Below the pieces are notes generated by a model. It made no database searches and was not told where the DNA came from. It saw nothing but the letters and a program-made list of their open reading frames with translations. The position numbers and the translations under genes were made by a program. This document shows positions 4,312 to 7,300 of a DNA stretch of 10,677 bases, in pieces. The stretch's first letter is position 1. Each line of letters opens with the position of its first letter. Source of the DNA: Nostoc sp. CHAB 5834 (GTDB lineage Bacteria > Cyanobacteriota > Cyanobacteriia > Cyanobacteriales > Nostocaceae). The stretch lies in assembly GCA_020829485.1 (NCBI GenBank), contig JAIVFU010000166.1, positions 1-10,677 on the forward strand. The letters run 5' to 3'.

Positions 4312-7300
4312 ATGTCACTCACCCATATCAAGGTGCGCGGTGCGCGCGAGCATAATCTCAAGGGCGTCGATATCGACTTGCCGCGCGACAAGCTGATCGT
4401 GATTACCGGGCTTTCCGGTTCTGGCAAATCCAGTCTCGCGTTCGACACGATCTATGCCGAGGGCCAGCGACGTTACGTTGAGTCGCTCTCCGCTTATGCG
4501 CGGCAATTCCTTGAAATGATGCAGAAGCCCGATGTCGAGCATATCGAGGGGCTTAGTCCCGCGATCTCGATTGAGCAGAAAACCACCAGCCGCAACCCGC
4601 GCTCGACCGTGGCGACCGTGACCGAGATTTACGACTATATGCGCCTCCTCTGGGCGCGCGTTGGTGTGCCTTATTCGCCTGCAACCGGCCTGCCGATTAC
4701 CGCGCAGACCGTCAGCCAGATGGTTGACCGCGTGATGGCGTTGCCCGAGGGCACCCGCGCCTTCCTGCTCGCGCCTGCCGTGCAGGGCCGCAAGGGCGAA
4801 TATCGCAAGGAACTCGCCGAGTGGCAGCGCTCTGGCTACACCCGCGTCCGCATCGACGGCGAGATGTACGCCATCGAGGAAGCGCCCGCGCTCGACAAGA
4901 AATACAAGCACGACATTGAGGTCGTGGTTGACCGGATCGTTGTGAAGGACGGCATTCAGCAAAGGCTCGCCGAGAGTTTCGAGGCGGCGTTGAAGCTCGC
5001 CGATGGGCTGGCGTTTGTGGATTTGGCGGATGGGACGGTTGCTGAGCTTATGCAATCCGTCATCCCCGCGGAGGAGTTTCGAGTTGGACATGCCCCGCAC
5101 GTCCAAGGATTGTCCGGGGGACAATCCGACCCGAAACTGATCTCGGGCGTTGGTGCACTGCCGCCTGAGACCCCTGCCTTCGCAGGGGTGACGAGTGAAG
5201 GAAATAGTAGCAGTTTAGCCGAAGCCAGAACTCCGTTCGTGTCGAGCGTAGACGAGACACCCATCGGCATTGCGCAACCTAACGGTGTCTCGACGATGCT
5301 CGACACGAACGGGAAAGAAAAGGCGGGAAAGAACGCCACAGGCGGCGCGATGAAAGGCACCGGCCTCCCCGCCAACCGAATCGTCTTTTCCGAAAAATTC
5401 GCCTGCCCGGTCAGCGGCTTCACCATCGCCGAAATCGCGCCGCGGCTGTTCTCCTTCAACGCCCCGCAAGGCGCGTGCCCTGATTGCGACGGCCTAGGCG
5501 AGCGGCAGGAGTTCGACCCGCAGCTTGTCGTCCCCAACGAGCATTTGTCCTTAAAAAAAGGTGCAGTCGTGCCGTGGGCGAAATCCAACCCGCCATCGCC
5601 ATACTACATGCAGGTGCTGTCCAGCCTCGCCAAGGCCTATGACTTCACTCTCGACACCCCGTGGGAGGATCTGCTCCCCGACCAGAAGCTCATCATCCTC
5701 CACGGCACCGGCGGGCTACCGGTCGAGCTGACCTTCAAGGACGGGCGCAAGGAATATACCGTCAACAAGGCGTTCGAGGGCGTCATCGGCAACCTCAACC
5801 GCCGCCTATTGCAAACCGACAGCGCGTGGATGCGCGAGGAACTGTCGAAATACCAGACCTCGCAACCGTGCGAAACCTGCCACGGCGCGCGCCTCAAACC
5901 CGAAGCGCTCAGCGTCAAGATCGCGGGCGTAGACATCGCCACCCCCACCAAGATGAGCGTCGGCGATGCGCTCGTCTGGTTCGGCAATGTCGACCAGACG
6001 CTGACCAATCAGCAGCAGCAGATTGCCAAGGCGATCCTCAAGGAAATCAACGAACGGCTTGGCTTCCTCAACAATGTCGGGCTCGATTATCTCAACCTCG
6101 ATCGCACCAGCGGCACCCTGTCCGGCGGCGAGAGCCAGCGAATCCGCCTCGCCAGCCAAATCGGCTCCGGCCTGTCGGGCGTGCTCTACGTCCTCGACGA
6201 ACCCAGCATCGGTCTGCACCAGAAGGACAATGACCGCCTGCTCGCGACGCTGCGCCGTCTGCGCGATCTTGGCAACACCGTCATCGTCGTCGAACATGAC
6301 GAGGACGCGATCCGAACCGCCGACTGGGTGGTCGACTTGGGCCCCGGCGCGGGCGTCCACGGCGGCAATGTCATGGCCGAAGGCACGCTCAAGCAAATCC
6401 TGAAGGCCAAGGGCAGCCTGACCGCCGATTATCTCAACGGCACCCGCGAAATCGCGGTCCCCAAGACGCGGCGCAAGGGCAACAAGAAGAAGCTGACCGT
6501 CCACAATGCCCGCGCCAACAACCTCAAAAACGTCACCGCGAGCATCCCGCTCGGCACCTTCTGCTGCATCACCGGCGTGTCGGGTTCGGGCAAGTCGAGC
6601 TTCACCATCGACACGCTCTACGCCTCGGCGGCGCGGTCCTTGAACGGCGCGCGCGTGATCGCTGGCGCGCATGACAAGATCACCGGCCTCGAACATTGCG
6701 ACAAGGTGATCGACATCGACCAGTCGCCCATCGGCCGCACGCCGCGGTCGAACCCCGCGACCTATACCGGCGCGTTCACCAACATCCGCGACTGGTTCGC
6801 GCAGCTGCCCGAAAGCGCGGCGCGCGGATACAAGCCGGGGCGTTTCTCGTTCAACGTCAAGGGCGGCCGCTGCGAAACATGCAGCGGCGACGGCCTGATC
6901 AAGATCGAAATGCACTTCCTGCCCGACGTCTATGTGACGTGCGAGGAATGCAACGGCAAACGCTACAACCGCGAAACGCTTGAGGTCAAATGGAAGGGCC
7001 TCTCGATCGCCGATGTGCTCGACATGACGGTCGAGGACGCGGTCGAGGTCTTCAAGGCCGTCCCCCCGATCCGCGACAAGATGGCGATGCTGGCCGAGGT
7101 CGGGCTTGGCTATGTCAAGGTCGGGCAGCAGGCAACGACCCTATCGGGCGGCGAAGCGCAACGCGTGAAACTCGCCAAGGAACTCAGCCGCCGCAGCACC
7201 GGCCAGACGCTCTACATATTGGACGAGCCCACCACCGGGCTTCACTTTGAAGACGTCCGCAAATTATTGGAAGTCCTCCACCGCCTGGTCGAACAGGGCA

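Follow-up and report, generated by a model that had tools for sequence, protein, structure and literature searches.

Unrelated palindromic repeats read in frame at one hypervariable linker of UvrA

Intragenic REPs of the GTAG and CGTC superfamilies were described by Di Nocera, De Gregorio and Rocco (2013; PMC3733652), who report that small palindromes are mostly intergenic, with some inside genes, often those of DNA repair. Their examples include REPs in uvrA of Thioalkalivibrio and Opitutus terrae, in uvrB of R. conorii and in tRNA synthetases of E. litoralis and S. alaskensis; within one gene category the REP sites differ, except for recB of two Xanthomonas. The CGTC type, found mostly in Alphaproteobacteria and predominantly as head-to-head dimers, consists of a terminal CGTC, a stem of 8-9 bp and a loop of 4-5 bases, with A-T almost invariable in the first two stem positions and an unpaired tail that is mostly, not always, CCA. 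The CGTC superfamily includes Rickettsia RPE-4 and RPE-6 (PMC3733652). RPEs (Ogata 2000 and 2002, as cited in PMC2229807) are palindromes, 105-146 bp long, that form in-frame fusions within conserved genes, and the guanylate kinase of R. conorii is translated and active with an RPE insert (PMC2229807). In enterobacteria and neisseriae, MITE-like repeats that carry open frames also become joined in frame to genes (PMC2229807, PMC2759123), and several are described as having a terminal TA and target-site duplications (PMC2229807). Coding palindromes are also reported from the mitochondria of nematomorphs (PMC6649704).

In-frame insertion of a palindrome is therefore a known kind of event, usually described as a scattered oddity. 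What looks new in the locus described here is that one protein site has taken so many unrelated repeats. Our literature search found no description of a shared UvrA site: the passages of PMC3733652 that it covered name no sphingomonad uvrA, and the Figure 7B and supplementary list of that paper, which lay outside the search, may hold one. We consider it very probable that REP/RPE-like dispersed palindromes have inserted in uvrA and are translated as part of a disordered, length-tolerant linker under the filter of selection.

The locus lies in a stretch of 10,677 nucleotides, analysed whole and called the window below, in which uvrA, encoding excinuclease ABC subunit A, occupies positions 4312-7488 of the forward strand (1058 aa; NCBIfam NF001503, E = 0, 1570 bits). 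Pfam assigns residues 132-238 of the protein to the UvrB-interaction domain (UvrA_inter) and residues 402-513 to UvrA_DNA-bind, and the first zinc-motif segment, FACPVSGF, starts at residue 363. The insertion site is a hypervariable linker of 133 aa, running from ADG to the residue that precedes FACP (4999-5397, forward strand); it separates the UvrB-interaction domain from the first zinc segment, as the initial annotation had stated; on the suggested closeness to the UvrB- and DNA-contact surface, the analysis covered the order of domains. Two palindromic elements stand in this linker in the forward orientation, element 1 at 5058-5193 and element 2 at 5233-5312, separated by the 39 bases of 5194-5232. 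The uvrA frame passes through both intact and without a stop, as had been proposed, and each element has stops in both of its other forward frames. Element 1 is read as VIPAEEF...ETPAFAGVT, with VIPAEEF starting at residue 250, and element 2 as PFVSSVDETPIGIAQPNGVSTMLDTN(G), with PFVSS starting at residue 308. Like intragenic REPs (as described in PMC3733652), the two are small palindromes inside the repair gene uvrA. Likened by description, they resemble RPEs in lying in frame within a conserved gene and MITE-like repeats in being small, dispersed, open-framed and gene-fused (PMC2229807). Rfam models at gathering cut-offs gave no match within the window.

Both elements fold far better as RNA than expected, compared with 200 dinucleotide shuffles each. 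The stretch 5058-5203, holding element 1, reaches -74.3 kcal/mol against a shuffle mean of -54.5 (z -4.7), and the stretch 5228-5316, holding element 2, reaches -50.4 against -25.1 kcal/mol (z -8.1); no shuffle was as good in either test, which bears out the palindromic character first noted for them. That the segment is an ordinary UvrA loop, palindromic by chance, could draw on the fact that linkers of 41-47 aa are usual in the family, but the two folds, the occurrence of element 2 arms in many genomes and the lack of both elements in the nearest relative make this scarcely credible.

Element 1 is composite: arms of the CGTC type form its outer part, and inside them is a hairpin at about 5075-5138 (AGTTTCG...CGAAACT, forward strand, taken from the fold structure). 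Its right end carries a CGTC-REP-like unit on the reverse strand (5167-5193), which we read directly off the sequence against the layout given in section 6 of PMC3733652: CGTC, an 8-bp stem (5182-5189 with 5170-5177), the 4-base loop GAAG (5178-5181) and the tail CTC. The first stem pair is A-T and the second C-G, a departure from the nearly invariable A-T pairs, and because the CTC tail departs from CCA we call element 1 CGTC-REP-like and not a member of the type. The left end is limited to CGTC and half a stem; the ends stand head to head with the left unit incomplete, and the arm has dispersed copies. The stretch 5075-5134 has matches of 87% in two genomes, G050 and G229, of the genome group g42. 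Since element 1-like composites occur in the same two genomes (L209 and L213 in G050, L210 in G229), the element may be a single unit and not a nested insertion. Simple copies sharing its GTTGGTGCACTG stretch occur at L217 and L218. Among the 120 UvrA homologues listed, no other UvrA contains the whole of element 1, which counts against insertion of dispersed repeats.

Element 2 is of another kind. Its inverted arms (5233-5261 and 5284-5312) are 29 nt long and 90% complementary, start with CCGTTCGTG and enclose 22 nt, and unlike CGTC REPs it does not have the CGTC layout. Because it is a near-palindrome in register, its opposite strand encodes an almost identical peptide, PFVSSIVETPLG...GVSSTLDTN. 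Matches to element 2 were found in 84 of 298 genomes of the family Sphingomonadaceae, spread over 43 of 96 genera, and four g42 genomes hold at least 80, 66, 80 and 16 strand-wise matches. With a combined query of elements 1 and 2, genomes of g68, the group with the nearest UvrA, gave 32, 19, 15 and 13 strand-wise matches in four cases, 1-6 in five and none in one. Both elements have dispersed counterparts, with matches to each in the genomes of relatives. The suggestion that they are families of this lineage's own does not hold: element 2 extends over those 43 genera, and element 1 is laid out at its right end like the CGTC REPs, a superfamily in which RPE-4 and RPE-6 are placed (PMC3733652). 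Two observations weigh against the preferred reading, namely that none of nine g1 genomes contains element 2 and that its matches are scarce in the genomes of L038 (4), L039 (1) and L016 (0).

In relatives, inserts at the linker recur within the genomes that carry them. We sampled 16 genomes with different inserts, 100 kb each, and used tiles of uvrA as the control. At E 1e-5 the uvrA insert recurred in its own genome in 11 of the 16, against none of 292 control tiles; at the looser E 1e-3 the figures were 12 of 16 and 12 of 292, and the stricter cut was applied afterwards. The five sampled genomes with no second copy of the insert within 100 kb count against the dispersed-repeat reading.

Copies also lie within other genes of relatives. 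Among 166 places matching an element or insert (best matches with overlaps, and so not a random sample), 46 fell inside a long open frame, and a codon-composition filter left eight: two in uvrA and six in other conserved genes named by NCBIfam. Copies of the element 1 or element 2 type, both of which are represented, stand in frame in glyS (L140, with two copies), valS (L152), ileS (L211; a match under the NCBIfam cut-off in a frame truncated by the locus end), carA (L424), putA (L132) and lnt (L226). In relatives, then, these dispersed palindromes also occur in frame in conserved genes, as intragenic REPs and RPEs do, and the in-gene copies anticipated by the initial annotation exist. The glyS and ileS copies are read in other frames, so that copies outside uvrA are not tied to one frame. 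A peptide-word search with residues 247-338, which detects only long proteins sharing exact words, returned nine proteins at E <=0.1 among 140 candidates: the UvrA of the window and eight others, all with UvrA domains.

The linker is where UvrA varies in length. From the best 120 of 7994 homologues we kept the 112 of at least 960 aa, dropping eight shorter ones. Between window residues 246 and 345 these have 7-98 aa, in 34 distinct lengths. The next variable place, 346/347, has a range of 6 and still belongs to the linker; elsewhere inside the protein a single place varies, with a range of 1. These ranges were taken between columns filled in at least 95% of rows (at least 90% for the family and for the Hyphomicrobium-type proteins below), so rare deletions of core columns are invisible to them. 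L363, the nearest UvrA row, shows 99% identity with the window protein across 649 aligned columns and has neither element. Its linker is 56 aa long, most plain relatives have 41-47 aa and distant ones as few as 20; measured against L363 and the plain relatives, the window carries 77-92 extra residues, in agreement with an earlier estimate of about 85. The alignment also supports the expectation that the segment would be absent or different in relatives. Genome G001, proposed as nearest relative on shared words, was rejected: with the same 123-aa query its UvrA reaches 75%, against up to 98% in g68.

An even draw of 139 Sphingomonadaceae genomes gave 132 with a uvrA match, representing 92 of 96 genera, and all 132 loci were read. 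Their linkers span 20-96 aa, with 85 shorter than 50 aa and 47 of at least 50 aa, and in 130 of the 132 rows (two were dropped) length variation of more than 9 aa is confined to the linker. Repeat peptides are recognisable in 33 of the 47 long linkers and belong to at least seven families: PEPVEG/STGSAR, PAKAG/PASAG (the element 1 type), SPSGEG/PSPEGEG, SGER/GERA, PLPxAGG/NPSREREG, AGEGDQP, PFVSS/LDTNG (the element 2 type) and a few others. The peptide patterns that name them were composed after the linkers had been inspected; they mislabel four short linkers (L282, L287, L322 and L342), which we counted as insert-free by requiring at least 50 aa for a label. A fold with z < -3 (60 shuffles each) is present in 26 of the 47 long linkers, against one of 77 short ones, the other eight of the 85 having been dropped as too short. 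Two insertions at one spot had first been taken to suggest a permissive hotspot; the hotspot stands, and its extent is far wider than two insertions. This sets the locus apart from intragenic REPs (as described in PMC3733652), in that seven or more repeat families are found in a single UvrA linker across one family of bacteria, and from RPE inserts, which are described for 19 reading frames (PMC2229807), in that one linker repeatedly receives unrelated families.

Not all of the length is accounted for by recognised repeats. In g68, 41 of 45 genomes gave a match, and 33 of the 41 linkers are long; 14 of these 33 have a motif and 10 have z < -3. No recognised repeat is found in 14 of the 47 long family linkers or in 19 of the 33 long linkers of g68, and 18 of the latter 19 also have no strong hairpin. 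On these counts, part of the length may be of another origin. The 18 linkers with neither motif nor strong hairpin fit the view that they are decayed inserts, without proving it. In all, 23 of the 33 long g68 linkers are without a strong hairpin.

The frame in which inserts are read points to selection on the protein. Linkers of 298 loci (some genomes counted twice), delimited by flanking sequence independently of open frames, contain no stop and no frame break. We located DNA patterns in the 244 distinct linkers of 253 loci, counting related loci separately. All 14 forward and all 18 reverse matches of the PEPVEG-type arm lie in one phase. For the CGTC arm one phase holds 10 of 12 forward and 11 of 13 reverse matches, and for the element 2 arm 9 of 12 in either direction; the three exceptions in each direction are different sequences, judged by the peptides they encode. 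The fourth pattern, CCCTCCCGC, is short, and its matches are spread over every phase on either strand (17, 1, 31 and 19, 19, 5). Much of the frame bias is accounted for by stops, in that the other two forward frames are stop-free in only 8 and 9 of 47 insert-bearing linkers. Charge may explain a further part: net charge per 100 residues is -1 in the frame that is read and +15.5 in the other forward frames, and hydrophobic residues make up 13% and 19%, respectively.

These data bear directly on whether the insert could be excised from the RNA, or whether ribosomes could bypass it at the hairpin, leaving a normal protein. Ribosome-bypassed elements occur elsewhere, and the hairpins at this site are strong. 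A skipped insert would nonetheless not be expected to keep 298 loci clear of stops and frame breaks or to hold three families to one reading frame each, and we regard removal or skipping as very improbable. Presence of the insert in the mature protein is what we expect under the preferred reading.

The solved UvrA chain 2r6f aligns with the window protein up to chain residue 257 and resumes at 261, so that about three residues stand at the place of the linker in that chain. In an AlphaFold2 model built from 41 rows (mean pLDDT 71.5, pTM 0.61 overall), each of the ten blocks that make up residues 251-350 has a pLDDT of 21-28, with no secondary structure there, and pLDDT stays below 50 across residues 251-351. 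The segment is predicted from this model to be disordered, as the initial annotation had supposed, and the scarcity of alignable rows may be a partial cause of the low confidence. Beside the linker, the first zinc motif (residues 363-370, window 5398-5421) reads CPVS, invariant in 41 aligned UvrA, against CPYC in 2r6f; the motif is one cysteine short in these proteins.

Inserts at the linker appear to turn over quickly. On a quick UvrA tree of 169 of 172 rows (three dropped), built with the linker left out, the repeat label requires at least 43 changes, and 100 label shuffles require 43-46 (mean 45.2); motif-less linkers were merged for this count, which is blind to gain versus loss. Label changes near the shuffled level indicate that related rows scarcely share inserts. 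At L364 a copy of element 2 is split by a further repeat, and L375 has the first bases of an element 2 copy followed by a PEPVEG-type repeat. Regarding the target-site duplications of MITE-like repeats, the linker DNA of aligned relatives is too divergent to fix an empty site.

Two other explanations were weighed. One is an insertion hotspot at the DNA level, where local sequence or structure draws repeats and permissiveness of the protein is secondary. Many unrelated families do fall within a short stretch, 18 of 37 readable motif starts lie at linker residues 18-22, and the split element of L364 shows that an existing palindrome can serve as a target. The other 19 starts, however, are spread over residues 13-49 and, in the window (where the motif misses element 1), 79, the repeat families are unlike in sequence, the cluster at 18-22 may merely mark the end of the conserved part, and the frame bias requires selection on the protein regardless; we therefore find a DNA-level hotspot unlikely. 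The other is that repeat-bearing linkers are useful, whether by tuning UvrA (hand-over to UvrB, damage search or mutation rate) or as a translational pause or folding spacer. A second order also has a long, variable linker, and Di Nocera et al. (2013; PMC3733652) speculate that inserts alter repair and make mutator strains. Yet the linker is shorter than 50 aa in 85 of 132 family genomes, the many hairpin-less long linkers of g68 run contrary to a maintained RNA role, and label turnover on the tree is nearly random, which leaves usefulness a quite improbable account.

The preferred reading, insertion of dispersed palindromes into a tolerant linker, would proceed as follows. Selfish REP/RPE-like palindromes would spread genome-wide, by transposition or similar copying, and keep arriving. 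The linker would accept them as a segment that joins two folded parts and whose own structure is not needed. Survivors would be those that keep the frame, bring no stop and add a weakly hydrophobic, disordered peptide that is nearly neutral for UvrA function. Their hairpins would then decay and old inserts be replaced, giving fast linker turnover. One site in a widespread repair protein offers dozens of natural insert changes, with close relatives empty or different, through which the neutrality of insertion, the peptides that pass selection, the rate of repeat mobility and the reason that repair genes are targeted become testable. For annotation, differences in UvrA length within these groups can reflect mobile-repeat history.

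Similar features extend beyond the order. Among five loci whose UvrA is only 62-63% identical, the linker has a hairpin of z < -3 in three (L043, Hyphomicrobiaceae; L045, Devosia; L046, Microvirga) and none at that level in L048 and L049. In Hyphomicrobium-type UvrA (P0121-P0240) the linker could be parsed in 89 of 120 proteins and spans 53-115 aa in 29 lengths; many of these linkers contain other repeat-like peptides resembling SPSPRPSRGEGRGEG...PHPNPLPASGERE, seen in proteins only. Across 103 aligned rows of this type, the protein ends are more variable than any single linker block. It is conceivable, if doubtful, that the linker after the UvrB-interaction domain is a landing strip throughout Alphaproteobacteria, where selfish palindromes from many families are recruited as protein without pause and their turnover itself alters repair between species. 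In that case UvrA would naturally record which repeats had been active in a lineage, and would also generate diversity in repair.

The rest of the window contains further repeats and two open frames. The frames, 8319-8978 on the forward strand (219 aa) and 8982-10271 on the reverse strand (429 aa), have no Pfam match at E 0.001. Repeats of the CACAAAGACACAAAG type stand at 2476-2597 and 7700-7728, in inverted and distant copies, and the inverted repeat CCTGAGCCTGTCGAAGGGCG / CGCCCTTCGTCAAGCTCAGG at 216-291 is of the type of the PEPVEG/STGSAR inserts in the UvrA of relatives. Directly 3' of the uvrA stop, a second strong palindrome at 7507-7574 is formed by two head-to-head CGTC-REP-like hairpins, and the stretch 7500-7600 around it folds with z -8.0.
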